Below, piece by piece: positions 12,457 through 61,599 of a stretch of 62,234 nt of DNA. The notes below the pieces were generated by a model. That model was given only the letters and a program-made list of their open reading frames with translations, did no database searches and had not been told where the DNA came from. The position numbers and the translations under genes are program-made. The number at the start of each line of letters is the position of its first letter. Position 1 is the first letter of the stretch. The stretch is from a virus. The stretch covers positions 1 through 62,234 of the IMG/VR virus record IMGVR_UViG_3300017692_000001. One strand, given 5' to 3'.

Positions 12457-12458
12457 TC

Positions 12459-42964: not shown

Positions 42965-43317
42965 GGCGTGCGGCTTCCGGTGGCCAGCCAGACACGCTCC
43001 AGCGGGCCGGTGGGCTCTTCTGCGGTGTCGAGGGTGTAGACCCAACCAGGCATGTGCTTGAACGAGATCTTGCCGCCACGCTCGAATTCGAGATCCGGTG
43101 TGTCGGAAGGGATCGTGACGATGCGGTACAGGCCCTGAGTCATCTCGGCGTAGCCGTCGCTTTCGGCATCGCCAGACAGCGCCATCTTGGTGTGCAGCCG
43201 CGCGGTGATGCCGGCAGGCGCACTCATGGTTTTGGACTGATAAAACGCCGACACGCCGAGCGTCGTTTGGACGACTCGGCGTGCGTTCGCTTTCACGTCA
43301 GCGAAATCGAAGGCCAT
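42961..43317 (-). CDS. Head-tail joining protein (118 aa)
   Basis: MAFDFADVKANARRVVQTTL, then a beta-rich body (SAPAGITARLHTKMALSGDA, LYRIVTIPSDTPDLEFERGG). Placed between head and tail modules like lambda gpFII-type connectors. The ATG shares bases with the upstream gene's stop. No strong family signature. Confidence 0.55.
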   Translation of the reverse strand: MAFDFADVKANARRVVQTTLGVSAFYQSKTMSAPAGITARLHTKMALSGDAESDGYAEMTQGLYRIVTIPSDTPDLEFERGGKISFKHMPGWVYTLDTAEEPTGPLERVWLATGSRTP

Positions 43318-43541
43318 CAGATCTCGTCGTTGGCCTTCTTCGTGACGGCCTTGACGACCGCCTCTTCCTTCTGCAGTTCACGCAGCATCGGCTTGCCTTC
43401 GGCCTTCTCGGCGCGACGGATGTCGGTGACTTCCTTCTCGTAGAACTCGCAGGGCACGTTGATCGGCAGGTTCACGAACTCGCCTTCACGAACGACGCTG
43501 ATGGTGACGAGAGGAACCAGGGTAACGAGCTTTTCAGCCAT
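43317..43541 (-). CDS. Small head-region protein with NDEI C-terminus (74 aa)
   Basis: MAEKLVTLVPLVTISVVREG, PINVPCEFYEKEVTDIRRAE, then a charged helix ending KKANDEI. Position next to the capsid gene recalls small lambda FI-type packaging accessory proteins. It is one of the few head-module genes with the acidic DEI tag. Confidence 0.6.
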   Translation of the reverse strand: MAEKLVTLVPLVTISVVREGEFVNLPINVPCEFYEKEVTDIRRAEKAEGKPMLRELQKEEAVVKAVTKKANDEI

Positions 43542-43571
43542 GATATTTCTCCAGGGAACGATTGAATGAAG

Positions 43572-43599
43572 GACGGCCAGGCGGAATTGCCCGGCCGTC
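43572..43599 (-). terminator. Hairpin after the major capsid gene, possible attenuator
   Basis: GACGGCC (43572-43578) and GGCCGTC (43593-43599) pair, extended inward by GGC/GCC with one mismatch. No T run follows on the minus strand, so it is more likely an mRNA-stabilising or partially terminating structure that sets high capsid yield than a full terminator. Confidence 0.45.
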
Positions 43600-43608
43600 A
43601 GGCCACCA

Positions 43609-44661
43609 TCAGCGCACGCGCATGCTGAAGGTGGTGTTGGGGTTCTTCGGCACCATCAGGGGCGACGTCTGGCCCAGGATGTATTCGTGCGAAGGATCTT
43701 CCTCCAGCCAGTTCTTGAAGAACCGTGTCAGGGGCTGGAAGCCGGCACGCGCGTCGAAGATCGCGCCGTAGCAGCGGATGCCGTCGAAGCCGTTGCCGAT
43801 GCCGACCACCGTGTCCTGGTCCATGTAGAACTGCAGGGTGCCGGTCTCGTCGACGTACTTGGAGTTGTCGACCCACAGATCCAGACGGCCTTGACCGTCG
43901 GGACCTTGGATGTAGCCCATGTACTCCTGGCCGTCGTAGCCGTCCGAGATCAGGGACACGTTGACCTGCTGGCCACCGTAGTTCTTGTCCATCAGATCGC
44001 GCAGGTTCACGCGCTTGGCGAACGCGCCCCAGGCATTGCCGCCGAAGACGTACTTGTTGACGGTCGTGCCCGACAGGTTGTTCACGGCGATACGTGCGGC
44101 CTTCAGGTCAGCCAGCGGATCGACGCCGACGGTATCCCAGGTTGCGTTACCTGCCTTCACGATGGTCAGCGAACCGTCGCGACGGAAGTCGACCGTGACG
44201 GCCGGGTAGTCTTCGCCCTGCACGACCACGCTGCCCTTGGTGAGCGCCTGGCAGGCCATCCACTCTTCCAGGTTGGCGAACTTGATCTTCTGGCGACGCA
44301 GCAGTTCGGCCTTGACGGCGTCACGACGCTGCTCGATCGACAGGTTGCCGACGATCGGGTTCTCGCCGGGCACGCGCTCGATGTGCATCTCGGGCGTCAC
44401 GACGTCCTTGATCTTCGAGTAGGCCGGCGCGAACTTGATCGAGTCGTAGGTCTGCAGCTTCTGCGGACGACCCTTGACGTTCGGCAGGACGAACGGGGCC
44501 AGGCCACGGTCGTCGCCGTAGACACGATCCCACATGATGTAGGGCGTGTCGAAGTTCAGTTGACGGCCGAACTGCGGGAGCCAGAACTGCTTGGTCGGCA
44601 GCTTCTGGAAACGATAGACCGTGTCGAGCGTGGCACGGTCGTAGAGGGTGATGTCGGGCAT
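43609..44661 (-). CDS. Major capsid protein, lambda gpE family (350 aa)
   Basis: Characteristic of Phage_cap_E proteins: an N-terminus with TVYRFQKLPTKQFWLPQFGR, then KLQTYDSIKFAPAYSKIKDV, SIEQRRDAVKAELLRRQKIK and the C-terminal IGNGFDGIRCYGAIFDARAG and FQPLTRFFKNWLEEDPSHEY. HK97 fold expected. Preceded by the decoration protein gene, as in lambda. The length equals the family's usual 340-350 residues. Confidence 0.9.
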   Translation of the reverse strand: MPDITLYDRATLDTVYRFQKLPTKQFWLPQFGRQLNFDTPYIMWDRVYGDDRGLAPFVLPNVKGRPQKLQTYDSIKFAPAYSKIKDVVTPEMHIERVPGENPIVGNLSIEQRRDAVKAELLRRQKIKFANLEEWMACQALTKGSVVVQGEDYPAVTVDFRRDGSLTIVKAGNATWDTVGVDPLADLKAARIAVNNLSGTTVNKYVFGGNAWGAFAKRVNLRDLMDKNYGGQQVNVSLISDGYDGQEYMGYIQGPDGQGRLDLWVDNSKYVDETGTLQFYMDQDTVVGIGNGFDGIRCYGAIFDARAGFQPLTRFFKNWLEEDPSHEYILGQTSPLMVPKNPNTTFSMRVR

Positions 44662-44695
44662 GATCTTTTTCCTGTGTCGTGGTGTTGCGGGGAGA

Positions 44696-45067
44696 TCAGT
44701 TCGGCAGAACGTGACCGACCTTGATGGGGGTGCCGTTGAAGAACGCCTTGCGGGCGTTCAGCGTGGCGGCCAGACCGGCAGGCCAGACCAACGCTTCGTG
44801 GTTGAAGTGGCCGGCGTCGTAGTAGGGCACACGGGCGCCCACGTTGCCGCCGATCGCGCTGATGACAGCCTGGCTCGGGGTGTTGGTGCCATTGACGAAC
44901 GGCACGACGGTGCCGTCGGACAGCAGCGCGAGCACCTGGTACTGCACGCATGCGGCAGTGGCCATCACAGCCGAGTCGTTGCTGATCGGACGATCGCCCA
45001 CGAAAGGCTGCTTGAGGGCGGGAGGCGTTTGGACTTCGCCCACCGCGAGTTGCGGATATGCAGACAT
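44696..45067 (-). CDS. Head decoration protein, lambda gpD-like (123 aa)
   Basis: Small beta protein located between protease/scaffold and capsid genes. PISNDSAVMATAACVQYQVL, ALLSDGTVVPFVNGTNTPSQ, and GHFNHEALVWPAGLAATLNA with the C-terminal FNGTPIKVGHVLPN match the gpD pattern. gpD trimers stabilise the expanded capsid at the threefold axes. Confidence 0.8.
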   Translation of the reverse strand: MSAYPQLAVGEVQTPPALKQPFVGDRPISNDSAVMATAACVQYQVLALLSDGTVVPFVNGTNTPSQAVISAIGGNVGARVPYYDAGHFNHEALVWPAGLAATLNARKAFFNGTPIKVGHVLPN

Positions 45068-45100
45068 GGAAATTCTCCTTGCGAGTGGATGGGAACGAGA

Positions 45101-45529
45101 TCAGTCCTTGACCGGCACGAACTCGGCGCCGGACGACAGGGCCTGTGCCTTCAGGATGCGGTTGGCGTTGGACATCTCGGGCTCGTCGGTCTTGCCTTTG
45201 GCAGCACCGTCGGCACCGACTTCCGGGTTTTTGGTGTTGCCCATCGCGGCATCCAGCGGCGAGACGCCGTTGGCCTTGGGATCGACGACGGTGGTGCTGG
45301 TGGCTTCGGGTTCCGCGGCGGCGAGCACGGCCTTGGCGTCGGCGACCGACATCTCGGTGTTCATCGACAGGTGGTTGGCGAGCTTGGTCTTGCCCTTGGC
45401 TTCGTCGCTGCCCTGGATGTCCTTGACACGTTGGCGCTCGGCCGTGCGTGCTGCGGACGCGGCTGCGTCGAGATCTTCCTTGGTGTGTGCCTTCGCGTTT
45501 GCGCCCGGCTCGGTTGCTGCTGCAGACAT
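45101..45529 (-). CDS. Nested scaffolding protein (Nu3-like, in-frame internal start; 142 aa)
   Basis: Methionine 301 of the protease gene (ATG at 45529) has GAAAGGAAAG at perfect spacing upstream. From it an acidic, alanine-rich, helical product (MSAAATEPGANAKAHTKEDL to SGAEFVPVKD) can be made alone. This mirrors lambda C/Nu3, where the scaffold is the C-terminal part of the protease gene. Its removal by the protease would follow capsid assembly. Confidence 0.75.
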   Translation of the reverse strand: MSAAATEPGANAKAHTKEDLDAAASAARTAERQRVKDIQGSDEAKGKTKLANHLSMNTEMSVADAKAVLAAAEPEATSTTVVDPKANGVSPLDAAMGNTKNPEVGADGAAKGKTDEPEMSNANRILKAQALSSGAEFVPVKD

Positions 45530-46429
45530 TGCGTCTTTCCTTTCACTGGTGGTAGTTGTCGAGCCGGAAAGCTCGGCGAGAAACGCATTGAACGCCTCCT
45601 TGGGCGTTGCAATGGCGTCGATTAGACCAAGAGACAAAGCGTCCTTGGCCGAATAGGTTCGGGCTTCGGTGGCACGCACTGCCTTGTCCGTGAGCCCACG
45701 ATGTTCGACGACCAGGCCGACAAACTCATCGTAGGAGTCGTCGATCGATGCCTGGATGTCCTTCTTGACGTCGGCCGACAATGGCTCGAACGGGTTGCCG
45801 TCGACCTTGTGCGCACCGGCATGGATGAACGTGACCTTGAATCCCATCTCGGTCAGGAAGCCGCTCATGTCGACGTGCATGGCGACCACACCGATCGAGC
45901 CAGCGCCGCCGCTCGGGGTGCACACGATCTTGTTTGCGGCCGACGACAAGGCGTATGCCGCGCTGTAGCAGTTGGCATCGACCAGCGCCATCGTGGGCTT
46001 GGTCGCAGCGAAGATCGTGCCCGCGCACTCGAAGCAGCCGGCCACCGCGCCGCCGTTGCTGTTCACGTCGAAGATGATGCCGATCACATCGTCGTCGGCT
46101 TCGGCCTGCTGCACCTGGCGGCTGATGAAGTTGTAGCCGGTGGCATAACTGCCATAGGACGACGCCAGGCGGTTCAGCAGTGTGCCGCTGATCGGAATGA
46201 TGGCGATGCCCTGCGCAAACGCAAACGGCTTGGCCTGCGCGACGCCGTCCTGCCCGTAGGCCGCGGCAAGCTGGCCACGACGCACCGACATGAAGTTGTC
46301 GTTCTCCGCGTCGATGTTGGAACTGGCCACATATGCGAGATCGGACTGCAGCGTCTGGAAAGTCGTCGCGATGGCGATCGGCTTCAGGTTCATCGACTGC
46401 AGTGCTTCGCGGGCTAGGTGTTTACTCAT
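45101..46429 (-). CDS. Head maturation protease, S49 family, with C-terminal scaffold (442 aa)
   Basis: Residues 80-290 form a ClpP/S49-type protease: IAIIPISGTLLNRLASSYGS, VIGIIFDVNSNGGAVAGCFE, the nucleophile Ser in ANCYSAAYALSSAANKIV, then PSGGAGSIGVVAMHVDMSGF with the catalytic Lys region downstream. The remainder is the scaffold described for 45101-45529. Corresponds to lambda gpC. Acts inside the procapsid. A pause-free GAAAGGAAAG ribosome site marks the internal start. Confidence 0.9.
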   Translation of the reverse strand: MSKHLAREALQSMNLKPIAIATTFQTLQSDLAYVASSNIDAENDNFMSVRRGQLAAAYGQDGVAQAKPFAFAQGIAIIPISGTLLNRLASSYGSYATGYNFISRQVQQAEADDDVIGIIFDVNSNGGAVAGCFECAGTIFAATKPTMALVDANCYSAAYALSSAANKIVCTPSGGAGSIGVVAMHVDMSGFLTEMGFKVTFIHAGAHKVDGNPFEPLSADVKKDIQASIDDSYDEFVGLVVEHRGLTDKAVRATEARTYSAKDALSLGLIDAIATPKEAFNAFLAELSGSTTTTSERKDAMSAAATEPGANAKAHTKEDLDAAASAARTAERQRVKDIQGSDEAKGKTKLANHLSMNTEMSVADAKAVLAAAEPEATSTTVVDPKANGVSPLDAAMGNTKNPEVGADGAAKGKTDEPEMSNANRILKAQALSSGAEFVPVKD

Positions 46430-46471
46430 TGGGTGCTTACTCCGAATTGGGCGAGATTGTAAATGGGGTGC

Positions 46472-48118
46472 CTAAATCTCATCGTCGTCTTCGTCATCAG
46501 CGGCACCGGCTGACGCGGTCGACTTGGCCGTCGGCTTCTGCGTGCTGAAGTTCAAGGTGAGACCCAACTTCTTGGCGTATGCCTCTTCGCGGGCCTTCTG
46601 CCGCATCACCTTGCGCCAGTCTTCGCCGAGCCGGCCGGTCTCCATTTCCATCGTCGACAGACCCGCGCCCATGCGCAGCATCGCGGCTTGCGTCTCCTTC
46701 ATTTCATCCACCTGCACACGGGATGCACCGATCCAGGATGCGGCAAAGATCGCCTCACGGACCAGGGCATCAGCGTAGAAGCGCTTCAGGAACGCAGCAG
46801 GGGTCACACCCACCGGCAGCGGGACGTTGCCGCGGTTCAGTTCCTCTTCGAGCCACAGCCGATACATGCAGTTGGCGGTGTTGTCGCCGACCAGCTTTTT
46901 GCGCGACTGCATGAACTTCCAGGTCTCACCCATCGAAGCACGCGCCGACGAGTAGTTGGTGTTGGTGTAGTCGCGGCTGAACTGCTCATAGCTCAAGCCG
47001 AGGGTGGCTGCGATATGACGCAACAGCGACTGCTCGAAAGTGGTGCCGACGCCGCCCGGTGTTCCCATCGGCTTCATGTTCAGCTTGGTGCCCGGGAACA
47101 GATGCGGGATCTTGGCACCGTCGACCTTCACCGAACCACCCGCCTCGACATAGCCCATCAGGCCATCCATGAAGCCTTGCACGACTTCGGCATAGGTCTG
47201 TTGGCCAGGACCAGCACCCATCATCTCGCGCACCAGGTCAGGCGACATCTCCGACTCGATCGCCGCGGCATAACTGGCGTTGACCACAGCGTTCTGCAGC
47301 GTCACGTCCTGGAACGTGCTGGTCATCTTCATCTGCTTGAGCGCGGCAACCATGTCGGCCACACCGCGCGACTGGTCGGGCTGCATCTGCTCGATCGTGT
47401 GCAGCACCATGCGCCGGCCCCACGGCTTGTAGGCATTGACGCGTACCCACTCGTAGCCGTCGACGTCCCACAGGATGTCACCGGGGTGGCCCTTGCGAAT
47501 CCAGTACGCGATCGGAGCACCGTAGTTGTCCTTCTCGATGCCACGGCGCAAGGTCTTGGTGTCGGGCATGCCGTCCGGGTTGGACAGCCGCGACGGCGAG
47601 ACCATCTGCATGGCCGAGTAGAACGGGCGATCGGGCCGCTTCTTCCACTCGCATGTGGCCAGCACTTCACCTGTCATCACGAAACCACTGACGGCCAGTC
47701 GCACCAGGCCCGTAAGCGTGTTCATCTCGCTGGCATCGCACCAGTTTTCGCTCGAATCCGACAGCAGGTTGAAGCGGGTCTCAGCCCATGCCGAGAACTC
47801 TTCGGCCCACTCTTCGGTGAAGCCCAAGATCTCATTCACAGGCTGCGCATTGAGTCGGTACTGCGCGCCGACGATGCTATCGCGATGGATGGCCAATGCG
47901 CCCATCGCATAGCCATCGTTCTGGATCATGTCGCGGCTACGAGCGTCAGCCGTCTCCTTCACGCCAGAACTGAGTTGACGATCAGGCGAGATGATGGGCG
48001 GCGACCACAGCGCGGTCTCGCGAGTGGTGCGCTCGGCACCTTCAAGACCACCGCCACCTTGGCCAACAGCGCCAGTGACAGGGCGCGCAGCAACGTCGAT
48101 TACAACAGGTGGTTTCAT
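46472..48118 (-). CDS. Portal protein, lambda gpB family (548 aa)
   Basis: Strong match to the gpB class: RDMIQNDGYAMGALAIHRDS, IVGAQYRLNAQP, TGEVLATCEWKKRPDRPFYS, and the signature ATLGLSYEQFSRDYTNTNYS followed by SARASMGETWKFMQSRKKL. Forms the dodecameric DNA gate. Unlike lambda gpB it ends in AGAADDEDDDEI, the acidic tag shared with TerS and other DNA-handling proteins; in the portal this tail would lie exposed before or during packaging. Confidence 0.9.
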   Translation of the reverse strand: MKPPVVIDVAARPVTGAVGQGGGGLEGAERTTRETALWSPPIISPDRQLSSGVKETADARSRDMIQNDGYAMGALAIHRDSIVGAQYRLNAQPVNEILGFTEEWAEEFSAWAETRFNLLSDSSENWCDASEMNTLTGLVRLAVSGFVMTGEVLATCEWKKRPDRPFYSAMQMVSPSRLSNPDGMPDTKTLRRGIEKDNYGAPIAYWIRKGHPGDILWDVDGYEWVRVNAYKPWGRRMVLHTIEQMQPDQSRGVADMVAALKQMKMTSTFQDVTLQNAVVNASYAAAIESEMSPDLVREMMGAGPGQQTYAEVVQGFMDGLMGYVEAGGSVKVDGAKIPHLFPGTKLNMKPMGTPGGVGTTFEQSLLRHIAATLGLSYEQFSRDYTNTNYSSARASMGETWKFMQSRKKLVGDNTANCMYRLWLEEELNRGNVPLPVGVTPAAFLKRFYADALVREAIFAASWIGASRVQVDEMKETQAAMLRMGAGLSTMEMETGRLGEDWRKVMRQKAREEAYAKKLGLTLNFSTQKPTAKSTASAGAADDEDDDEI

Positions 48119-48121
48119 GGT

Positions 48122-48361: not shown

Positions 48362-48389
48362 GTGCGGCCTTTCGATTGTTGGGCGTGGG

Positions 48390-50468
48390 TCAGGCCAGCG
48401 CCTTGGCGTACTTGGAAAAATCAGTGGGCGATTTTATGGTATGCGCCAGCTTCGGAATCTCATCGGGTTGGCGTATGAGACTGTTCTTGTCCCACGGCGC
48501 GGCCCACTGCGGCGGGTTTTCCCAATCCCACGTTTCGATTCGGATGTAGGTCGACAGACACAAGCCGATGCACATATAGCCCAAGTCGACGGCTTCGTTT
48601 CGTGTTCGACCGCTGGTGTGTTCCCACCCCTTGCTGGTCCGCTGCTCGGCGCACATTTCCTCGAAGAACGACGTCGGCAACCAGTTCGGCATCAGGTACA
48701 TGCCCTGGCCCGGCGTGAAGCAATCGAGGCGTGCATCGAGTTCGTCCTTCAGCAGATTCGAGTTGAACTGCAGCACAGGCACGTCGCCGCGCGCTGCCGC
48801 GTTGCGATCCTTCCGGCTGCTGTCCGGGTGGGTAATCTGCGTGCGCGGATGGCCGGGCTTGCCGCTGCCCTTGGTCAACACGAACCGCGCATGCCGGCCT
48901 TCGTCTTTCAGCTTGCGCCAGAAGCGATAAGCCATGCTGGTCACGCCGTCCTTACCACCCGAGTCGCAACCGGTCAGCTTGATCGGCATCATCCTGCCCG
49001 ACCCGTCAGCGAGTTCGTATTCCCGCTCCATCACATTGCCGATGAGTTCATCCCAATCGTCGAGTTCGGCGTGCGGCTTGACCCACTCCAGCCCGCCCAC
49101 TTCATCAGACCGCTGCGAGTATTTGACCTCGAAGCGGTCGATCAAGACCATGTCGAACGGTTTGCCCGGCATGATCCCGAAGATCTGCACGATCCACATA
49201 TTCTTCTGCACGTCACACAGCGCAACCAGGAAGCGCACGCCCTCGGGGACCTTGCGCACCTGGTCTTCCTGCAGCTTGATCGCGTTGGCCTGCAGCGTCT
49301 CGGGCAAACGGCTCGTCAGCATCGACTTCGGCAGGTAAGGCTCGCCCAGGTCGTTGTTGTAGAACTTGGTCAACGGCCCTTCGTTCTGCGTCTTCTCATA
49401 CTCATCGTTGGCATCGAGAAACGCATTGACCAGTTTGGACCACGTCGTGAAGGCCGCGGCGATGCCGTTCAACCAGTAGGAAGCTATCGACGTGCGGATC
49501 TTCGGGCCGAACACGACACCGTCTTTGTCGACGGCCTGGCCATCCTGCACCCATCGACCGGCCATCTGCATCGCCTGCCGCTGGTCAGGGTGGATCAGTT
49601 CGCCGCAACCGGCCAGCGGACACCTCAAGCGCGCGGTGGCGCCGACGTCCATGTTCGTCATGCCCTCCTGCTTCGTGTAAGTGATCTGCGACCAGTTGCC
49701 CTCGAAGTAACCACCGCAGTGAGGGCATGGCCAGTACCAGCGGCACTTGTTCCCGCGGTTGTAGAGGGCCAGGATGCCGGCGCACGGCGGGGCCTCATGA
49801 AGACTGGCGCGAATCCACTTCGGGTTGTCGATCGTGCGCGACGGCGACGACTCACAGACGGTCATGGCGTTCGACAAAAACGTGGTGGTGCGCTTGCTGG
49901 CCAGGTCGTAGGGATCACCGTCACCGTCGATGTCGTCAGGCATCCGATCTCGATCGGTGAGCAGCACGCGGCCGATGGGCTTGCCGGCAAGTTCAGTGAC
50001 GGAGGGATAGCTGAACGTGAGCAGCACACCGTTGCGGTATTGCTTGTCGAACTTGTTGTCGCTGTCTGCACCCGGCAGCATCATGGCGCCGATCTCTTTC
50101 GAGTCGCGGTGCATCCGGTCGACCCGTCGAATCGAGAAGTCGCGCGCAGCCGTGGCCGTAGGACACACCAGCATGATGTCCATCGGGTCGACCTTCACCG
50201 TGTAGGCGATGAAGTTCAGAATCAGCGACTCGGTCTTGGACGACTGCGCTGGCCCTACAAAACAAAGGCCCACGTAGTTGCGGGCCAGGGTCATATCCAT
50301 CGGCTCGACCATGTAGGGAGCCATCGAATTCTTGTACTTGCCGACATAGGCGCCGGGGTTGTTCAGGTAGCGGTACTTCTCCGCGGCCTGCGAGACGGTG
50401 TATTCCTCCTTCGGCTCCAGCAGCGCCAGAACCGACAGGACCATATCCTCGACACGTTCAAATTTCAT
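48390..50468 (-). CDS. Terminase large subunit, GpA family (692 aa)
   Basis: ATG at 50468 (MKFERVEDMVL) is the favoured start; it overlaps the TerS stop. ATPase: CFVGPAQSSKTESLILN (Walker A), then VLLTDRDRMPDDIDGDGDPY in the Walker B place. Zinc motif PCPHCGGYFEGNW with RCPLAGCGEL. Nuclease half includes FKVKYSQR-like and TGCDSGGKDGVTSMAYRFWR (acidic site). GpA enzymes of cos phages nick 12 bases apart, which fits the terminal repeats here. The Walker B Glu appears replaced (DRD in place of DEx). Confidence 0.9.
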   Translation of the reverse strand: MKFERVEDMVLSVLALLEPKEEYTVSQAAEKYRYLNNPGAYVGKYKNSMAPYMVEPMDMTLARNYVGLCFVGPAQSSKTESLILNFIAYTVKVDPMDIMLVCPTATAARDFSIRRVDRMHRDSKEIGAMMLPGADSDNKFDKQYRNGVLLTFSYPSVTELAGKPIGRVLLTDRDRMPDDIDGDGDPYDLASKRTTTFLSNAMTVCESSPSRTIDNPKWIRASLHEAPPCAGILALYNRGNKCRWYWPCPHCGGYFEGNWSQITYTKQEGMTNMDVGATARLRCPLAGCGELIHPDQRQAMQMAGRWVQDGQAVDKDGVVFGPKIRTSIASYWLNGIAAAFTTWSKLVNAFLDANDEYEKTQNEGPLTKFYNNDLGEPYLPKSMLTSRLPETLQANAIKLQEDQVRKVPEGVRFLVALCDVQKNMWIVQIFGIMPGKPFDMVLIDRFEVKYSQRSDEVGGLEWVKPHAELDDWDELIGNVMEREYELADGSGRMMPIKLTGCDSGGKDGVTSMAYRFWRKLKDEGRHARFVLTKGSGKPGHPRTQITHPDSSRKDRNAAARGDVPVLQFNSNLLKDELDARLDCFTPGQGMYLMPNWLPTSFFEEMCAEQRTSKGWEHTSGRTRNEAVDLGYMCIGLCLSTYIRIETWDWENPPQWAAPWDKNSLIRQPDEIPKLAHTIKSPTDFSKYAKALA

Positions 50469-51102
50469 CGTCGTCATCCACTTCAATCACATCGGGCAAC
50501 GCAGGTTCGGCCAGTGCATCGAACGAGCGCTCTTGGTACATCTTCAGGATGTAATTCTCCTTGCTGTCTTCAACGTCGTCAGCGCGCTCCTTGAATTCCT
50601 CCTTGATCGCGTGCTGCAGTTCTTCCAGCAACGCGGCATCGGACTCACGCAGCAGCGTGCGCAGGGCATCACTTAGTTCCATGTTCCGCTCAATGCCGTC
50701 GACCCGTTGGCCGATGCGCTGCTTCAACAACTTGAACAGGCGCGACACGACCTCGACGACCTTGCCCGTGGGCCACAGATCGCCCATCTCGCGCATGTAG
50801 GCGCCGCGCGAGCGCAGACCATTCCAGAACTCCTTGCTGAGTTCCTTCGGCAGCGCGTTGGTGTTCATCCGCGGCAGGATCGCTTCGACCTGTGCCGCGC
50901 TTGGCTTGTAGAGCCGATGCACGACGTCACGCACCAGCCAGCACTTCGCGCCATTGCGCACGCTGTGATGCGGCACCCCGTATATCCGGGCCGTGATGGT
51001 CCGGGAGTCCATGCCGAAGAGCACTTCCATCTGCGAGAGGTTGAAGCCGCCGTGCAGCAGGTCTTCGACCGACGTGACCCCTTCGCCACTTTTCTTAGTC
51101 AT
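50458..51102 (-). CDS. Terminase small subunit, Nu1/DUF1441-like (214 aa)
   Basis: N-terminal winged helix (LLHGGFNLSQMEVLFGMDSR, TITARIYGVPHHSVRNGAKC, WLVRDVVHRLY) of the Nu1/DUF1441 type for cos recognition. A long helical middle (KVVEVVSRLFKLLKQRIGQR) for oligomerisation follows, then a C-terminal part that should contact TerL. Ends EVDDDDEI. Sites it may recognise are the repeats flanking the genome ends. Confidence 0.8.
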   Translation of the reverse strand: MTKKSGEGVTSVEDLLHGGFNLSQMEVLFGMDSRTITARIYGVPHHSVRNGAKCWLVRDVVHRLYKPSAAQVEAILPRMNTNALPKELSKEFWNGLRSRGAYMREMGDLWPTGKVVEVVSRLFKLLKQRIGQRVDGIERNMELSDALRTLLRESDAALLEELQHAIKEEFKERADDVEDSKENYILKMYQERSFDALAEPALPDVIEVDDDDEI

Positions 51103-51110
51103 GATCTTCC

Positions 51111-52751
51111 TTAAACAAATTCTTCTTCAAGCTCTTCCTCTTCGTCGTCGATAACCAGCGGCTTGCCGGCTTTCAACAACGCGATGAAGCGCTTCAGGGT
51201 CTTGAACATATAGGTCTGTGCGCTCTGCTTACGCATCAGTGCCTCGAACACTGCTTCGTCGAGCGTACCAACTGCCGACAGGATGTGGACGACGACAGTC
51301 ATCAACTGACCTTGGCGCGCGAGGCGGCCGATGACCTGCTCGTAGTTTTCCAAGCTCCAAGGCAGGTCGAAGAAGATCATGTTGTGACCACCCTCCTGCA
51401 GATTCAAGCCGTGGCCGGCCGACTGCGGGTGCACCAGCAGCATCGGGATCTTGCCGCTGTTCCACTTCGGGATGCACTTGCCGTCCTTGTCCATCACGAC
51501 GGCCTTGGGGAACGCAGCCTTGATCCGGTGCAACGACGCCTGATGGTGATAGACCACGATCACAGGCTTGCCGTCGAGGTTGTCGACCAGTTCGGCCAGC
51601 GCGTCGAGTTTGAAGTTGTGGATCTTGTGGATCTTCTTGACCTTCTTCATATCGTCGGTTTCGAGATCCTTGTCCAAGTAGGTCTCGTAGAGCACGCCCG
51701 ACGCCAGTTGCAGCAGCTTTTGCGACAGCGCCGCGGCAGTCTCAGCCTCAACCTCAGTGCCATCTTCCAGCTTGACCATAAAGTCCTTCTGGAGTTCACG
51801 ATAGAGGGCCATCGACTTCTCGTCGAGTCGCACCGGCTGCTTGATGATCAGCGGCTCGGGCAGCTTCAGATAATCCTTGGCCTTCATGACCAGCGTCATA
51901 TGCGCAATCTTGGCCAGGATGTCCTTTTCGCCGTTGGGCCGCAGTTCCCACTTCTTGTTGTATTGGTTCTGCGAGAAGTAGGTCTTCCGGTAGGTGGTGA
52001 TGTTGTGGCCGAGCGCAGCGCCCTTATCCAATAAGAACATCTGCGGAAACAGATGCTCGTAGGTCTCAGCCGCAGGGCTGGCCGTCAGCAGATGCAGGCG
52101 CGTGATCAGGTTGCGAGTGCTGCACCGGATGTCCTTCATTGCACGGAAGCGACCCGACTTGTGGTCCTTGAAACTCGATGACTCGTCGATGATCACCGTG
52201 CGGTAAGGCCACTTCACGCCCCAATAGTCACAGAGCCATTCGAGCCAGTCACGCGAGATGATGTGTACGTCAGCACGCTTGTGGGCGGCGTCGATGCGAA
52301 TACGACCCTTCATCACGGTCTCGGCGTTACCTGCAGCACTGTTGATCGCCTTCTCGTCATGGCCAGCAAGCCGACCTTGCTTGCGACAGAATGCCGCGGC
52401 CTGGCGCACACGCGGATCGTCATCACGCGCATGGATGAGCGAATAGCTCATGCCTGCCGTGTGCAGCCAGTTGGCGATCTCCGCAGGCCAGGTCTCGCAG
52501 GCCACCCGGCGCGGCGCCACGATCAGGATCGGATCACCAGTGCAGAAGCCGTCTTCCAACAACAACTCGACGATCATCGTCAGCACGCACGACGTCTTGC
52601 CGAGACCCATGTCGATGAACAGCGCCGAGAACGGGTTGTCCTTCAGAAACTCGATGGCCTGGCGCTGGTAGACATGCAACTGCTGCGGCTTGAGCCGGAC
52701 ACGTCGGAAGAGCGCGCGAATCTGCTTGGCGATGGGGCTCAGTACAGCCAT
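51111..52751 (-). CDS. SNF2/SF2-type helicase (546 aa)
   Basis: Motif I: FIDMGLGKTSCVLTMIVELL (about residues 46-65). Motif II: VIIDESSSFK (DESS in place of DEAH). Motif III: HLLTASPAAETYEHLFPQMF. The helicase C part has KPVIVVYHHQASLHRIKAAF and QSAGHGLNLQEGGHNMIFFD, with motif VI in EQVIGRLARQGQLMTV. It should translocate on dsDNA and remodel replication or recombination intermediates. Its acidic C-terminus is EEEELEEEFV, similar in charge to the DEI tag but without it. Confidence 0.85.
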   Translation of the reverse strand: MAVLSPIAKQIRALFRRVRLKPQQLHVYQRQAIEFLKDNPFSALFIDMGLGKTSCVLTMIVELLLEDGFCTGDPILIVAPRRVACETWPAEIANWLHTAGMSYSLIHARDDDPRVRQAAAFCRKQGRLAGHDEKAINSAAGNAETVMKGRIRIDAAHKRADVHIISRDWLEWLCDYWGVKWPYRTVIIDESSSFKDHKSGRFRAMKDIRCSTRNLITRLHLLTASPAAETYEHLFPQMFLLDKGAALGHNITTYRKTYFSQNQYNKKWELRPNGEKDILAKIAHMTLVMKAKDYLKLPEPLIIKQPVRLDEKSMALYRELQKDFMVKLEDGTEVEAETAAALSQKLLQLASGVLYETYLDKDLETDDMKKVKKIHKIHNFKLDALAELVDNLDGKPVIVVYHHQASLHRIKAAFPKAVVMDKDGKCIPKWNSGKIPMLLVHPQSAGHGLNLQEGGHNMIFFDLPWSLENYEQVIGRLARQGQLMTVVVHILSAVGTLDEAVFEALMRKQSAQTYMFKTLKRFIALLKAGKPLVIDDEEEELEEEFV

Positions 52752-53023
52752 TGTTTTGCCTCTTCAAAGCTATCGGTCCAATAGACCTCGACGTTCTGCG
52801 CACGAAGCTCTCCGTGACGCTTGAACTGCTGGCGCGTTGGCACCTTTCCTACCTTCTTGAACTCGATGCAGACCACACGGGTGTGCGCGCCCTGCGCCCT
52901 GAAAAAGAAGCGATCGGGCCAACCGTTTTTATTGGCCGACATGATCTTGATCTCGACCCATCCTCGTGAGATCGCATACGCCACGCTCGGACCTTCGATG
53001 TCCTTCTCCAACTCGTTCTTCAT
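52739..53023 (-). CDS. VRR-NUC domain nuclease (94 aa)
   Basis: A stand-alone VRR-NUC: ELEKDIEGPSVAYAISRGWV (leading Glu), NKNGWPDRFFFRAQ (PD motif), VCIEFKKVGKVPTRQQFKRH (ExK and Gln), and VYWTDSFEEAKQWL. PD-(D/E)XK superfamily, found as Holliday-junction or structure-specific nucleases in phages next to SNF2 helicases. The overlap with the helicase start (52739-52751) supports joint action. Confidence 0.85.
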   Translation of the reverse strand: MKNELEKDIEGPSVAYAISRGWVEIKIMSANKNGWPDRFFFRAQGAHTRVVCIEFKKVGKVPTRQQFKRHGELRAQNVEVYWTDSFEEAKQWLY

Positions 53024-55104
53024 ACTTCAAGATCCCTGCACTTCTTGCAATGACGATGACCGTCCGGCACCGCATCGAATTCGACCCACTTGTCCCGGAT
53101 CGTCTCGCGCGTTGCCCCGCAGAGCGCAATGCCGCTCGGCAGTTCGACGGTGTGAATGGTTTTCTTCTCTTCCATGTGGGCCAGAACAGTGCCCGTGCGG
53201 CCGGCCAGCGCCGGATCGACACCCTTCATCCCGACGTCGTTCAGGATCGCGTTGGCCTCCCGGAGATACCACTGCATGTCGACGTTCTCGGGGAACTCGT
53301 CCGGCAGTTCCATGCATGGCCAGCAGGCGTCCGACTTCGGCACCTTGTTGCCGTTGTCACGCTTGAACATGGCCTCGCTGCTGTTGTTGCAGTGGTAGAA
53401 GCGGATGGTCTTGCCGACGTACTCGCCGTTGAACATCGCGCCGCCTTCACCGACCTTCGTCGACGTCAGGAATTTGCGGATGTCCTTGCACTCGTAGATC
53501 GTCCGCTCCAGGGGGATGTTCTTCTGCAGGTAGAGCACGACGGCGTCGTAGGCGATCTCGGCGTCGGGGTTCTTCTTCAGCCCATAGGCGCCCGGTATGC
53601 CACGCCCGTGGACCGCGGCCTTGCCCTTGCGCTTGATCTTCACCTTGCCGGTCTTCTCGTCTGGCACGGTGAACGCGATGTAGGTGTTGACGTCACGGGA
53701 GTGGACCGAACTGTATTCGGTGTACTCCATCTCAAGGCTCGTCTCGATCTCCCAATCCATGACCAGGCCGCGGTGCCACCACTTATGCTTGCGCGGCAGC
53801 TTGGTGACGACGCCGTCGGTGTTCGCGCTGATCACCTGGAAGCCGGCAAGGGTCATCTGCTCGATGAACATCAGCAACGATAGCTGACCCCCGAGTGTGG
53901 TCTGGATCATGATCTCGGGCGAGTAGACAACCGACCAGCGGCTGCTCGTCTTGCCGAAGAGACCGTTACACACAATCTTGCGCGACTCGGCAATCTCGAC
54001 CTGGCCCGCTCGCTTGGCGGCGGTTCGTTCGCTCACCTGGCGGCGGAACGCCGGCTGAAAGATCCCGCGCATGTTGTCCGGCTCCCGGCCGGTGGCGATC
54101 ATGTTGTTCGGGTAATAGCCGGTCACGTCGGTGTCGACGATGATCGTGTCTTCATCGGCGTAGTGGCTGATCGACGACTCCATCGAGTGCAGCCCACCGA
54201 TACCCATCATGTATCGGTTACCGCCAATCGTAACGATCCGACCTTCGAGTTCCTTCGGCGGGACGATGTAGCCGTCGCCACGAACGATGAACGACGCACG
54301 CATGACCTCATCGAACATCTGCTGCAGTTCTGGCGTCTGGAAGTTGATGTGCTTCGGTGGCACGAACTTGATCGCACCGGTCTTGACCTCATCGTTCGCA
54401 TACAGCTTGCGACCGGTCTCCTTCTCATAGACGCACTTCATCACCTGTTCGCCGACCTGCGCATCGCTCTTGCTGCGCATGTCGACACCGTATTCGTCGG
54501 ACATCTGCATGCGCAAGGTAATCTGCGGCTGCAACTCATCCCACAGGTCGCAGGTCAACTCCAGGTCGTTGTAGCAGTAGGCGGCCACCAGCGGGCGCAG
54601 ATCCTCGGTAACGAAGGTGTCATGGCCGACGGGCATGTCCTGGATCTTCTTCGACCCCATCATGGCGCCGTACATCTTCAGACTGGTGAACAGCGACTCC
54701 TTGCCACTGTCACGCGCGGCCGACGGTGCGACCTGGATCAAGTCGATGTGGTCGAGACCACGGGGCAGGTACAGCCCGTGGCGGTTCATGAACTCCCACG
54801 GCTTCAGGCCGACCAGTGGCTTCTTGACGATGATGGTGTCGTTCGCTGCCTTTAGTTCCTCGGTGCTGGCGCCGGTCAGGGCCAGGCAGATCATCGGGAT
54901 GTCGTAGTGGTTGCCGTTGAAGCTGACGATTCGATTGCGCGCAATGACCTTGCGGATGCCGTCAGTGTCGAGGGGATGGCCTTCGTATAGCTCGAACTTC
55001 ACACGGCGGCTGCGATCGGCCGTGGACATGAACGCGATCGACCAGTAGCCAGGCAGGCACTCGGTGTCGGTGGTGACGGTCGGTCGCTTGTCGATGTACT
55101 TCAT
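53020..55104 (-). CDS. DNA polymerase, family B with 3'-5' exonuclease (694 aa)
   Basis: Exonuclease: TDTE (Asp13, Glu15), SFNGNHYDIP (Asn63, Asp68) and YCYNDLELTCDL near residue 175. Polymerase motif A is IVDTDVTGYYPNNMIAT, motif B SRKIVCNGLFGKTSSRW and motif C VISANTDGVVTKLP; these fit family B (DxxSLYP, KxxxNxxYG, DTD) and not family A. Motif C is TDG where DTDS is usual. No separate terminal protein gene is evident, and the primase-helicase at 58990-61599 can supply primers. Size is compact for family B. Confidence 0.85.
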   Translation of the reverse strand: MKYIDKRPTVTTDTECLPGYWSIAFMSTADRSRRVKFELYEGHPLDTDGIRKVIARNRIVSFNGNHYDIPMICLALTGASTEELKAANDTIIVKKPLVGLKPWEFMNRHGLYLPRGLDHIDLIQVAPSAARDSGKESLFTSLKMYGAMMGSKKIQDMPVGHDTFVTEDLRPLVAAYCYNDLELTCDLWDELQPQITLRMQMSDEYGVDMRSKSDAQVGEQVMKCVYEKETGRKLYANDEVKTGAIKFVPPKHINFQTPELQQMFDEVMRASFIVRGDGYIVPPKELEGRIVTIGGNRYMMGIGGLHSMESSISHYADEDTIIVDTDVTGYYPNNMIATGREPDNMRGIFQPAFRRQVSERTAAKRAGQVEIAESRKIVCNGLFGKTSSRWSVVYSPEIMIQTTLGGQLSLLMFIEQMTLAGFQVISANTDGVVTKLPRKHKWWHRGLVMDWEIETSLEMEYTEYSSVHSRDVNTYIAFTVPDEKTGKVKIKRKGKAAVHGRGIPGAYGLKKNPDAEIAYDAVVLYLQKNIPLERTIYECKDIRKFLTSTKVGEGGAMFNGEYVGKTIRFYHCNNSSEAMFKRDNGNKVPKSDACWPCMELPDEFPENVDMQWYLREANAILNDVGMKGVDPALAGRTGTVLAHMEEKKTIHTVELPSGIALCGATRETIRDKWVEFDAVPDGHRHCKKCRDLEV

Positions 55105-55130
55105 AGTCGCCTGTATCCGTTAAATGCAAA

Positions 55131-55158: not shown

Positions 55159-55177
55159 CGGGTCCATCAGGCCCGGA

Positions 55178-55486: not shown

Positions 55487-55535
55487 GATGTCTATCCTTC
55501 TATGGTTGCTGGTTGGGTGATGGGTGTGCGACGGG

Positions 55536-56204
55536 TCAGATCTCGTCGCCGTCGTTGTTGGAATTGCCGCCCAGGCCGTCGTCGCCATCGGCCAAGTCGT
55601 CGTAGATGCTGCTGTCGTCGATCTTGCCGGCGCCGAACGGCTCGCCGTCACGCATGAAGAAGACCGATCCCAGGCTTGCTGCAACTCGCTTCGGATATGC
55701 CTTGTCCTTGCCCTTGACGACACCGCCGAAGAACCACGGGCGAATGACCATCGTCAGATAGCAGCCACTGTAGAAGGTGCGATCGATCTCCGTCGCATCG
55801 GTGATCTCCTTACCCTGGCGATTACGAGCAGTCGGACGCTGCTTGGTCTCAGACGCGCTGATGAGCCAGTGGCCGTGCATGGTTTCGTCTTCACGTTCAT
55901 CACCGTCCTGGATGAACATATTGGCACGCAGCACCTTAACGGCCTTCTCCCCCTTGCCCTGCGCAGCAACGATCTTGTCGATCGTGGCGATGACCAGGTC
56001 GTAGGCTTCGACACGAGCCTTCGGCAGCATGCCAATACCGCGCCACTTCGGATTGGGAGTACCGTCGTCGTTCTTATCGTCGGCCTGCTTGCCGAGGAAA
56101 AGATAGGAGCCGCGCACATCGTCGAGACGGAGCAGGGGGTTGCCTTTGTCGTCTTCGTAGAGTCGTGCGCCAGGAACAGTTTTAATGAGTTTCGGTTGAG
56201 CCAT
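55536..56204 (-). CDS. ssDNA-binding protein, DUF2815/Enc34 type (222 aa)
   Basis: Carries DUF2815 hallmarks: GKQADDKNDDGTPNPKWRGI, MFIQDGDEREDETMHGHWLI, DRTFYSGCYLTMVIRPWFFG and SLGSVFFMRDGEPFG. Enc34-type proteins have an OB fold and an acidic C-terminal tail like bacterial SSB. Here the tail runs DDSSIYDDLADGDDG to NNDGDEI and ends in the tag common to RdgC, TerS and primase-helicase. It coats ssDNA at the replication fork and may recruit partners through the tail. Confidence 0.85.
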   Translation of the reverse strand: MAQPKLIKTVPGARLYEDDKGNPLLRLDDVRGSYLFLGKQADDKNDDGTPNPKWRGIGMLPKARVEAYDLVIATIDKIVAAQGKGEKAVKVLRANMFIQDGDEREDETMHGHWLISASETKQRPTARNRQGKEITDATEIDRTFYSGCYLTMVIRPWFFGGVVKGKDKAYPKRVAASLGSVFFMRDGEPFGAGKIDDSSIYDDLADGDDGLGGNSNNDGDEI

Positions 56205-56230
56205 GATGGTTTCTCTGTTGATAGGAATGG

Positions 56231-57526: not shown

Positions 57527-57545
57527 CTATCAGGCCCGGCGTCGA

Positions 57546-57932
57546 TCAGATGTCTTCGGCGGCCTTGGCCTTTTCGCGATCGGCCAGCGCGGCTTCGGCA
57601 GCGGCGAACACCTGGTCCATGTGCTTCTCGCCGATTTCCTTGGACTTGGTATAGCCGAGCGGCACGAACAGGGCGCGTTGCGCCGCGGCCGATGCAGCCT
57701 TGTCGTCGCCGTAGGTGGCGCCGATCTTGCCGAGCAGGGCCTGCACTTCGGCCAGGGTGTGCTTCGGCGCGACGGTCTTGTCTTCGACGGTGGTGGAGGC
57801 GGTGCTGGTGCCCTTGCCGGCGTCGGCGGTGCCCGCGGTGCTGGTAGAAGACGCACCGGCCTTTTCGGCGGCTTGCAGGAAGGCGATGGCCAGGGCAGTC
57901 GATGCGAACTGTGCGGAAACGGTGATGGACAT
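57546..57932 (-). CDS. Hypothetical acidic protein with EDI C-terminus (128 aa)
   Basis: Start at 57932 (MSITVSAQFASTALAIAFLQ) has AAGGATCATC upstream. A Thr/Ser/Ala-rich linker, a helical middle (HTLAEVQALLGKIGATYGDD), and RALFVPLGYTKSKEIGEKHM precede the end, KAAEDI. The last residues approach the DEI tag but lack the second-last Glu. Function unknown; located among replication genes. Confidence 0.65.
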   Translation of the reverse strand: MSITVSAQFASTALAIAFLQAAEKAGASSTSTAGTADAGKGTSTASTTVEDKTVAPKHTLAEVQALLGKIGATYGDDKAASAAAQRALFVPLGYTKSKEIGEKHMDQVFAAAEAALADREKAKAAEDI

Positions 57933-57974
57933 GATGATCCTTGAGATGAAAGGGAACTGCGCAGAGATGAAGAA

Positions 57975-58007
57975 GCACACGTCAGGGATGCGCGCCCCGA
58001 CGTGTGC
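57975..58007. other. Intergenic hairpin
   Basis: GCACACGTC (57975-57983) and GACGTGTGC (57999-58007) pair perfectly over nine bases with a 15-nt loop, between two leftward genes. No T run follows in either direction. It may be a regulatory or mRNA-processing structure. Confidence 0.45.
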
Positions 58008-58029
58008 GGGGAACGTGTGTTGCCGTCGA

Positions 58030-58527: not shown

Positions 58528-58573
58528 GATGGTCCTATAAAACGGATGAGGGATGAACGGTTAAGAGACTGCA

Positions 58574-58601
58574 GTATTACCGCAGGTGGTGTACCTGTCA
58601 A
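58574..58601 (-). promoter_or_regulatory. Leftward promoter of the replication-structural block
   Basis: On the minus strand TTGACA (58601-58596), 16 bp, TAATAC (58579-58574). TGACAG-N9-CTG keeps the first half-site and the first three bases of the second. It precedes the ATG at 58527 and lies back to back with the HTH gene at 58652. Confidence 0.65.
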
Positions 58602-58651
58602 CCGTTCTCACATAGAATTGCGAAAATTTTTCGCTGCCACCCGGAGCCTCT

Positions 58652-58933
58652 ATGCAATTTCCCGAGACCGTTGACGACCCGAGTCAACCTGATGAAGAAC
58701 GTGCTCGCCGTCGTTTGAAGTACCTGCTGGATCGGGCCAGCCTGCGCCTGACCGGGCGTGAGAGTGTACGCAGTCTGGCCAAGGCCCTGAACATGAACCA
58801 CTCGTCGGTCATATATGCACTGCGGCAAGGCAAGTGCGCCGCCCACATGGCCGTCACGATCGAAGAGATGTGCGGCCGGACACATACCCGCAACGAATGG
58901 CTGCGTCGCCCGCTCGACGTCCCGACGGAATGA
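58652..58933 (+). CDS. Helix-turn-helix regulator (93 aa)
   Basis: Residues 38-80 form a lambda-repressor-like HTH: ESVRSLAKALNMNHSSVIYA, LRQGKCAAHMAVTIEEMCG, with a closing TRNEWLRRPLD. This resembles small Cro/YdaS-type regulators. CCCGGAGCC precedes the ATG. It stands divergent from the major leftward promoter and upstream of the primase-helicase, the natural position for a regulator of that junction; the paired half-site operators are candidate targets. Confidence 0.7.
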   Translation: MQFPETVDDPSQPDEERARRRLKYLLDRASLRLTGRESVRSLAKALNMNHSSVIYALRQGKCAAHMAVTIEEMCGRTHTRNEWLRRPLDVPTE

Positions 58934-58989
58934 ACCCTGCGGTCTCAGCAGTTCATGGTTCATTCGTCCGCGGACGTCGAGGAAGTTAA

Positions 58990-61599
58990 ATGAGTGGATA
59001 TTTTGAAGATCATGGGCTGACGCTGATAGCCAATGGCTACGGCATCGTCCCGATCCCCAAGGGCAGCAAGTCCCCGGGGTTGCGCATAGGTGAAGGTGAT
59101 GCGGCCAAGCCGTTCGCCTGGCAGTTGGACTACGCACGCACGCCCGAACAGTTCAAGGTCATGATCGACCGCGGATGGGGCAAGCACGGTGTCGGCATCG
59201 TGGCCAAGGACACGCCGGCAATCGACATCGACGTGCTCGACAAGGACATCGTCGAGAAGCTGGTGGATTGGGCCGAACACACGTTCGGCGTCACGTTCCC
59301 GCAGCGCGTAGGCAAGGCGCCGAAGACCCTGCTGATGTTCTCGACCGAGAAGCACTTCGGCAAGATCATGTCCGCGTCCTACTACAACGGAGATCATCCC
59401 GAGTGGACACCCGGCAGGCGGTACATGAAGGTCGAAGTGTTGGCTGACGGTCAGCAGTTCGTCGCCTATCACATGCACCCCGACACCGGCCGGCCCTACC
59501 AGTGGACCACCGACGACACACCGCTGAACACGCCAGTGATCGACCTGCCGCTGCTGACGGTCGACCAAGTGCAGGATGTCTGCCGCGAGTTCGAGCGACT
59601 GGCCGAAGAAGCCGGATGGGAGAAGAAGGCAGAGTCGTCATCCAGCACCACAGCCGGCGATGCAGACTACGACCCGCTGATGGAGATCCCGCCGCCGACC
59701 GAATCGACCTTCGAGGTTGACCGGGTCAAGTCGGCGCTGACGGCGATCAAGACGAAGATCAGCGAGTACAGCTACGAGCAGTGGCGAGATCTGATCTTCG
59801 CGCTGAAGTGGACCAAGTGGGACTGCGCATACGAGTTGGCCAAGGACGTCAGCGAAGCATCGGATCTCCACAACGAAAAGGAGTTCGAGAAGGTCTGGCG
59901 CGGCGCCGAGAAAAAGGAGGCTCGCGCCAACAAGGTCACGCTGGCCAGCCTCTACCAGCAGGCCAAAACCACGGCCGGATGGGATGCCACTCGCACGAAG
60001 ACCGAGGCAGAAGAACTCGAAGACTACGAGAAGATGGCCCGCATGTGCGCCAGGCTCGAAGGCATGGCCGAGGATGACAAATTCCGTCTGCTGCCGAAGA
60101 TCTTCCGCGAGATGGGCGATGCGAACCTGACGCCTGTAAACGAAGACCGCCTGTTGAAGCTGATCGGCAAGTTCACCGGGATCACCCTGCCAACACTGCG
60201 CACCGAACTGCGCAACGCGAAGAAGTCGGCCGAAGACGGTGGCGGCACACACGCTGCCTATGCCGCGGCGCTGATCCGCAATCTGAAGAAGGACAACGGT
60301 GTCGCCCCGATCGGCGTGGAGGGTCAGATCTTCTCCTTCGATACCGACGACCGAGTGTGGCGCGGCAAGATCACGGCCGACTTCGCGGTCGACGTGGCCG
60401 ACGAGTTCGATGGGCGCGAAAACTGCATCCGTCGCAACGACTACACCGCGATCGCAGCGCAAGCCTATGCCGCGGTCAGCCAGGGCAAAGCAGACTTCTT
60501 CAACAAGGCCCCGATCGGCCTGGCCTGCCGCGGCGTCTTCTACAAGGTCGACGATGAAGGCCAGGTCGTGAAGGAAGAACTGCGCGCCGAACACCGTCAG
60601 CGTGTGGCCTTCGACATCCGGCCGATCGTCGGCGACATGCCGATGTTCAACAAGCTGCTCGACGACGCATTCGGCGGCAACTACAAGGACGAGCAGGTAC
60701 AGCTTCTGCAGGAAGTCATCGGCGCCACCGTGCTCGGCATCATGGCCAACTACGAGAAGGTCGTGATGATGAAGGGGCCTGGTCGCGCAGGCAAAGGCAC
60801 GCTGCTGAAGATCATCGAATCGCTGATCCCGCCTGAAGCCCGGTCGGCCGTGTCGCCGTTCAAGTGGGACCGTGAATACTACCTCGCGGATCTCGCCGGC
60901 AAGCGGCTGAACGTGGTGGGCGAGATGCCGGACGACGAGGCTATTCCGTCGGCGCACTTCAAGTCGGTCACAGGCCGCGACACGCTGACCGGACGCCACC
61001 CTACCGGCCGACCCTTCAACTTCCGCAACCAGGCCGCGAACATCTTCAACGGCAACCACTTCATCTATACCAAGGACCACAGCCCTGCCTTCTACTCGCG
61101 GTGGCTGCTGATGTCGTTCAAGAACAGCCGCGTCGGCCGCGAGAACGAACAGCAGGTCGACCTTGCGCAGAAGATCATCGAACACGAGCGTCCGGCTATC
61201 TTGGCATGGGCGCTGCAGGGCGCCAAGGCATTGCAGAGCCGCGGACACTTCGTCGTCACGACCCCACAGCGGCTGATGATGCTGGAATGGCAGCGTCGCA
61301 CCAGCACCTTGCTGGAATTCATCCAGGACACCGACCACTGCGAGATGGGAAAGGGACCGAAATTCGTCACGGCCAGGTCTTTTTTCTACAGCGAATATGC
61401 GCAGTGGTGCAAGGACTCGAACCGCAAACCGATGGGAAAACAGAAACTTTTCGACGAATTGGAACAGGAGCAGACCAAACTTTTAGGCATTTCGACAGGT
61501 TTTATGCACGGCGGCGTCAACTGCGTTCGTGGCGTGCACATCAAACGGGGCGACGGGGGGATGTTCACGGATCTCGAAGACGACCCCGACGAAATCTGA
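58990..61599 (+). CDS. Primase-polymerase / SF3 helicase (869 aa)
   Basis: N-terminal AEP-type primase-polymerase domain (about residues 1-200): GYGIVPIPKGSKSPGLRI, the D-x-D of TPAIDIDVLD (Asp79, Asp81), then PQRVGKAPKTLLMF. A linker follows, then a D5-like region and SF3 helicase with Walker A GPGRAGKGTLLKI (about 597-609), Walker B RLNVVGEMPDDEA and motif C region FRNQAANIFNGNHFI. It should melt the origin, unwind DNA and make primers for the family B polymerase. Ends LEDDPDEI. Divergently transcribed from all other replication genes. Confidence 0.85.
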   Translation: MSGYFEDHGLTLIANGYGIVPIPKGSKSPGLRIGEGDAAKPFAWQLDYARTPEQFKVMIDRGWGKHGVGIVAKDTPAIDIDVLDKDIVEKLVDWAEHTFGVTFPQRVGKAPKTLLMFSTEKHFGKIMSASYYNGDHPEWTPGRRYMKVEVLADGQQFVAYHMHPDTGRPYQWTTDDTPLNTPVIDLPLLTVDQVQDVCREFERLAEEAGWEKKAESSSSTTAGDADYDPLMEIPPPTESTFEVDRVKSALTAIKTKISEYSYEQWRDLIFALKWTKWDCAYELAKDVSEASDLHNEKEFEKVWRGAEKKEARANKVTLASLYQQAKTTAGWDATRTKTEAEELEDYEKMARMCARLEGMAEDDKFRLLPKIFREMGDANLTPVNEDRLLKLIGKFTGITLPTLRTELRNAKKSAEDGGGTHAAYAAALIRNLKKDNGVAPIGVEGQIFSFDTDDRVWRGKITADFAVDVADEFDGRENCIRRNDYTAIAAQAYAAVSQGKADFFNKAPIGLACRGVFYKVDDEGQVVKEELRAEHRQRVAFDIRPIVGDMPMFNKLLDDAFGGNYKDEQVQLLQEVIGATVLGIMANYEKVVMMKGPGRAGKGTLLKIIESLIPPEARSAVSPFKWDREYYLADLAGKRLNVVGEMPDDEAIPSAHFKSVTGRDTLTGRHPTGRPFNFRNQAANIFNGNHFIYTKDHSPAFYSRWLLMSFKNSRVGRENEQQVDLAQKIIEHERPAILAWALQGAKALQSRGHFVVTTPQRLMMLEWQRRTSTLLEFIQDTDHCEMGKGPKFVTARSFFYSEYAQWCKDSNRKPMGKQKLFDELEQEQTKLLGISTGFMHGGVNCVRGVHIKRGDGGMFTDLEDDPDEI

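Follow-up and report, generated by a model that had tools for sequence, protein, structure and literature searches.

A shared C-terminal tip on unrelated DNA-handling proteins of Casjensviridae-type phages: a probable docking peptide with a genome-specific last residue

The window and its tagged proteins

The stretch of DNA analysed here (the window) is the complete 62,234-base IMG/VR virus record IMGVR_UViG_3300017692_000001, in which 14 proteins clearly end in the same kind of C-terminal tag, an acidic tip closed by -EI. The record is colinear with Burkholderia phage AH2 (Casjensviridae), and its gene order, running through TerL, portal, protease, decoration protein, major capsid protein, a DUF2815 single-stranded DNA-binding protein (SSB), VRR-NUC, an SNF2-type helicase and a Prim-Pol primase module, matches that of AH2, Enc34 and Nazgul, with TerL identities of 54–57%. 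The virus is a Casjensviridae-type siphophage. The tagged ends were counted over about 76 genes; a crude gene call gave 75, and hand inspection added genes that the caller had missed.

Nine of the tags sit on plus-strand genes at 13.6–18.9 kb. This run opens with an RdgC-like recombination protein ending VEDDDEI (13659–14642; Pfam RdgC, 1.5e-24), followed by a small protein ending AEDEEI (14864–15067), whose stop overlaps the following start (ATATGA), a NADAR-domain protein ending LNDEEI (15064–15501; Pfam NADAR, 1.2e-21) and two further small proteins ending DTDDDEI (15498–15734) and VDDDDEI (16404–16679). In the Rv2179c-like 3'-5' exonuclease (16676–17284; Pfam, 1e-14) a basic linker precedes the tip TEDDEI, and in the next small protein (17311–17592) a basic, Pro-Ala-containing linker leads to VDDDDEI. 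The run closes with a SLOG (YspA/cpYpsA-related) protein ending EDPEEI (17596–17973; Pfam YAcAr, 1.1e-8) and a tagged protein ending VEDEEI (18315–18869).

The other five tags are those already named in the initial annotation, and each was found where it had been reported. Four lie on the minus strand, namely the small head protein encoded directly downstream of the major capsid gene (43317–43541; DUF7443 by Pfam), which ends KKANDEI, the portal protein (46472–48118; Pfam Phage_portal_2, 2.7e-83), ending DDEDDDEI, TerS (50458–51102; phrog_141, 2.6e-27), ending EVDDDDEI, and the gp2.5-like SSB (55536–56204; phrog_112, 2e-27), ending NNDGDEI. The fifth is on the plus-strand primase-helicase (58990–61599), ending EDDPDEI, whose earlier label was correct, as Pfam finds Prim-Pol, PriCT_2 and DUF5906 domains. 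A weak tag, AAEDI, is also present on the minus-strand protein encoded upstream of the exonuclease (57546–57932). The proteins said to lack the tag do lack it: TerL (48390–50486, minus strand), our untagged control, ends ALA, the family B DNA polymerase (53020–55104, minus strand) ends RDLEV, the major capsid protein ends SMRVR, and none of the tail and lysis genes carries it. The SNF2-related helicase (51111–52751, minus strand; Pfam SNF2-rel_dom, 3.5e-13) is also untagged and has an acidic tail ending ...EEEEFV; its long C-terminal acidic run (IDDEEEELEEEFV) is unlike the tag.

Ends of the form [DE]EI occur on 12 of the 75 called genes, compared with 0.07 expected from the internal tripeptide frequency (P ~1e-23), and the codons behind them vary, which rules out chance or a codon artefact as the source. 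The tag isoleucine is encoded by ATC six times, ATT five times and ATA three times, so that the rare codons ATT and ATA make up 8/14 of the tag isoleucines compared with 13% of isoleucine codons in the genome, where ATC accounts for 87%. The tag glutamate is split evenly (GAA 7, GAG 7), three different stops are in use and 12 of the 14 terminal 15-mers differ. Duplication of a tail at the DNA level can also be dismissed, as neither codons nor stops are the same. Stop–start overlap accounts for the ATA codon in three genes only, where it falls in ATATGA, with the remaining tag codons lying outside such overlaps. Because codons and stops vary between the tails and rare isoleucine codons are enriched, selection is acting on the protein, and the tails are not copied DNA.

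Distribution of the tag among related phages

A search of IMG/VR with the single polymerase protein gave no match, and TerL was therefore chosen as the query for relatives. From IMG/VR, 80 TerL-centred loci were taken, and the C-termini of 12 orthologue families were inspected; gene starts in these loci were set as the longest open frames, which leaves the C-termini unaffected. Tag frequencies were counted over 59 non-redundant genomes, and a second sample consisted of 17 full or nearly full genomes with crude gene calls. In two of the loci, L020 and L021, the TerL match (10001–13114) spans approximately 3.1 kb rather than the usual 2.1 kb or so, which suggests that something has been inserted into this TerL gene, an intein or intron for example.

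In the relatives the tag falls on the same orthologues. The tag was present on all of the SSBs (40/40), small head proteins (42/42) and primases (8/8) of the 59 genomes and on 57/59 TerS proteins, while it was intermittent on the exonuclease (21/37), the helicase (16/52) and the portal (5/49). It was found on none of the TerL (0/59), major capsid (0/42), protease (0/45), Ad1 (0/58) or decoration (0/43) proteins. The 17 full or nearly full genomes add RdgC (13/13), the gene before the exonuclease (16/17, window included) and a PAPS reductase (7/8), and here the primase is tagged in 13/15 full genomes. Each of these 17 genomes carries 5–16 tagged genes, by a pattern that lets in a few ends arising by chance and overlooks some of the xGL type.

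Individual phages show how widely the tag is spread over non-homologous proteins. Enc34 carries -EV after acids on its primase, exonuclease, SSB, TerS, small head protein, RdgC and other proteins. AH2 mostly has [DE][DG]L, on SSB, TerS, small head protein, ParB, RusA, exonuclease and primase, and in Nazgul the same kinds of protein, plus the helicase, end xGL, often as DPAAGL. An Erythrobacter phage carries a DI version, and in FoX4 a DNA methyltransferase is tagged. Two distant members, the Loktanella and Clavibacter phages, are mostly without a clear tag. In a literature search confined to open-licence papers, we found no mention of the tag in Casjensviridae phages.

The initial annotation had proposed that the tag crosses operons and follows functional class, and the relatives bear this out. 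Its description of that class as proteins that encounter DNA before or during packaging was mostly right, yet too narrow, given the tagged NADAR, SLOG and PAPS reductase proteins, and the portal, which it included, is tagged in the window but only seldom in other genomes. Cleavage of the portal and TerS tails, a possibility that it raised, finds no support in the sequence. The PAPS-reductase-like protein of Enc34 (L005:17063–17767), a member of this tagged family, is not an obvious DNA-binding protein; it may act in DNA or nucleotide modification.

The small head protein illustrates the architecture of a tagged protein. A conserved domain of approximately 50 residues is followed by a linker, which varies greatly in length and carries a net basic charge on average, and then by a conserved tip; AlphaFold2 (AF2) predicts a confident 57-residue fold with a disordered tail. 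A fold search gave no PDB match at E <= 0.001, and a clear resemblance was seen only to DUF7443 proteins. Its gene lies directly after the major capsid gene, as does that of lambda gpFI, but no structural similarity between the two was found. A different picture comes from DUF7609 (window 5480–5968), which is found in all 17 full or nearly full genomes and usually stops at the end of the domain. A tip has been added to it in two lineages only, the V clade, where it ends in V, and the Erythrobacter phage R16L, where it ends in I, which suggests that this protein gained the tag by C-terminal extension.

Concerted changes of the last residue

Across the 12 orthologue families the tips end in I, L or V, with F or M rare, and most genomes have a single dominant last residue. 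I dominates in the window and two Aeromonas phages and V in Enc34 as well as the Chi-like and Seifer-type phages, while most others have L; the Burkholderia phages are of L or xGL type. Within-genome pairs drawn from SSB, TerS, small head protein, exonuclease and primase agree in their last residue in 176 of 207 cases, compared with 88±6 after shuffling within families, which ignores relatedness. For this reason, the changes were also mapped on the TerL tree, using SSB, TerS and small head protein in 34 genomes. At least two of these families change on seven branches (null mean 3.6, P=0.013), and all three change together on four (null mean 0.37, P=5e-5).

The full tree places the window in a clade dominated by L tags, so that a joint switch from L to I in its SSB, TerS and small head protein, on the window's own branch, is the most likely history. 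When approximately 5,400 columns of 15 core proteins were scanned, the I lineages shared a clean convergent change only at the columns that end SSB, TerS and small head protein; a handful of further columns passed the filter, with mixed states. The case shows one short linear motif evolving in concert across many unrelated proteins.

A probable docking peptide

What we observe is that the tag exists, is spread over non-homologous proteins, is confined to one class and switches its last residue in concert, and that it has been kept across polymerase exchange and does not depend on the host (see below). From these sequence patterns, the tag is probably a C-terminal docking peptide, specific to each genome, for one common receptor. 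A flexible linker would lead to a tip, acidic or containing glycine, that closes with a single free aliphatic residue at the C-terminus, and through this peptide all tagged proteins of one phage would dock onto the same receptor. The receptor would read the last residue (I, L or V), so that receptor and all tails change together, and docking would bring the proteins of replication, recombination, DNA modification and packaging initiation together on the phage DNA. The initial annotation had suggested that the tails may share or compete for one binding site, and in support of a shared site the last residues covary across the tagged orthologues as those of one ligand would; that there is a single receptor is something we infer, and it would probably be phage-encoded.

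A fuller version of the proposal, to which we give slightly less than even credence, is that a phage-encoded hub unites replication, recombination, DNA modification and packaging by reading a phage-specific code on 5–16 unrelated proteins. Such a tag-and-socket arrangement could be joined by adding a few residues, would have survived exchange of the polymerase and would couple replication to packaging through TerS and the head protein. How replication, recombination and packaging proteins assemble on phage DNA is an open question outside T4 and T7, and a family-wide tag, which extends to the Chi group and to Enc34, whose SSB structure is solved, makes that question directly testable. The tag also offers a rule for predicting which uncharacterised early proteins act on phage DNA.

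Of the candidates for reading the tag, we place the SNF2-type helicase first, as a weak lead, and the SSB core after it. When tag differences were regressed on protein distances, the helicase stood out (partial r 0.32), with a standardised coefficient of approximately 1 where those of the other proteins are approximately 0 or negative. The signal persists with the TerS and small head protein tags alone, and within the family A polymerase class alone the simple correlation with tag type is highest for the helicase.

Several points weigh against this account. Mixed tags occur in 8/46 genomes, and replacing I, L or V by one another is a small chemical change. The helicase signal is diffuse, with no site emerging from column-wise association, could be a product of the replication module's own history and was judged against a permutation null that ignores relatedness, and the convergent-substitution screen of the 15 core proteins gave no convincing receptor outside the tag columns. 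Among the universal families, DUF7609 and the small head family alone had no detected homologue in the Loktanella phage, most of whose proteins lack the tag. DUF7609 is unconvincing as a receptor on such presence and absence, being itself tagged in two lineages.

Alternative explanations

Docking of the T7 type would make the phage DNA polymerase the receptor, with packaging proteins having joined the system later. In T7 the tails of gp2.5 (SSB) and gp4 (primase-helicase), which end DGDF and DTDF, bind the phage DNA polymerase, and no other such tail was present in the T7 proteins checked. SSB and primase are likewise among the most constantly tagged proteins here, each with an acidic tail and a terminal hydrophobic residue, and the SSB fold is the same: the window SSB is gp2.5-like by its phrog_112 match, its AF2 model and a family profile that matches the Enc34 SSB (5odj, 1.4e-80; 5odk). 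T7 has two tailed proteins with a terminal F, however, where Casjensviridae phages have more, mostly ending in I, L or V, and their polymerase has been exchanged with the tags kept. At the same position lies either a family B polymerase (window 53020–55104, AH2) or a family A polymerase (L004:6493–8520; Enc34, Nazgul), a non-homologous exchange within a replication block that is conserved in other respects. Tagged genomes comprise 27 with family A and 14 with family B, between which no homology is detectable (hhalign probability 0.2%), L tags occur in both classes (13 and 13), polymerase class and tag type are uncorrelated (r ~ -0.04), and AH2 and Nazgul share xGL tags across the divide. On these comparisons the T7 rule does not transfer simply to the Casjensviridae tags, and the polymerase, listed by the initial annotation among candidate partners, is disfavoured; we regard it as a quite improbable receptor. 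The SSB core, present in all full genomes examined, would instead receive tails that fill its OB-fold groove in place of ssDNA, the other proteins mimicking the SSB tail. In crystals of the Enc34 SSB a neighbour's tail does lie in the groove, and the protein without its tail gains dsDNA binding, so that the tail tunes DNA binding (PMC5686142). The last 11 residues, however, which are the tag, are disordered in that crystal (PMC5686142), the tip stays undocked in the AF2 model (pLDDT below 50) and SSB divergence follows tag type weakly (r 0.14–0.16), and the SSB core therefore seems to us an unlikely receptor.

A receptor supplied by the host, in the manner of the host factors that read the tip of E. 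coli SSB, would fit with the general make-up of cellular SSB tips, which also combine acids with a C-terminal hydrophobic residue. The tags here differ from the cellular ...DDDIPF type, and their type follows phage lineage rather than host: phages of Enterobacterales show V, L, I/F or mixed tags, and near-identical L tags are found across host orders in Smarc1 (Serratia) and UF_RH7 (Pseudomonas), making a host receptor very unlikely. C-terminal residues also govern the lifetime of bacterial proteins, and the tag might shield its carriers from a protease or deliver them to one. Generic protection would not be expected to be limited to one functional class or to switch between I, L and V in concert, and we consider such a signal highly improbable, with reading by a phage-encoded adaptor a possible variant. 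Non-specific acidic shielding of DNA-binding surfaces would suit the many strongly acidic tips and the tuning of DNA binding by the Enc34 SSB tail (PMC5686142), but several Nazgul tips have one acid or none (DPAAGL, SASGL), the linker before the tip of the small head protein is basic on average, and it is the terminal hydrophobic residue that is conserved and covaries, so that shielding can hardly be entertained.

Comparison with known systems

The clamp-binding C-termini of T4 offer the nearest likeness to a common docking peptide, in that gp43, gp55 and gp33 bind one clamp through hydrophobic-acidic C-termini that can be interchanged, the linker of gp55 being divergent (PMC2988020). Both systems place short hydrophobic-acidic ends on unrelated proteins behind divergent linkers, but the T4 system involves about three proteins, none of them for packaging or the head, whereas that of Casjensviridae involves 5–16 and includes TerS and a head protein. 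The phage-specific last residue is a feature of the Casjensviridae tag. No match to a sliding clamp was found among the window proteins scanned, which represent part of its genes, and a homologue recognisable only by its fold might be present. Packaging in T4 is tied to replication and late transcription by contacts of TerL with gp55 and gp32 (PMC9026906), a link between packaging and the replication machinery of the kind proposed here; that work describes no common peptide tag carried by TerS or head proteins.

The tip of E. coli SSB, DDDIPF, is likewise a recruiting peptide made of an acid run and a C-terminal hydrophobic residue. There one protein carries the tip and many partners read it, whereas here there are many carriers and presumably one or few readers, and the Casjensviridae tags do not have the C-terminal Phe after Ile-Pro that marks the bacterial SSB class. 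One protein of the Erythrobacter phage R16L, ORF55 (L195:35245–35658; 137 aa, with no Pfam match), does end in DDDIPF, the cellular SSB tip, and is a possible mimic of the host SSB tail.

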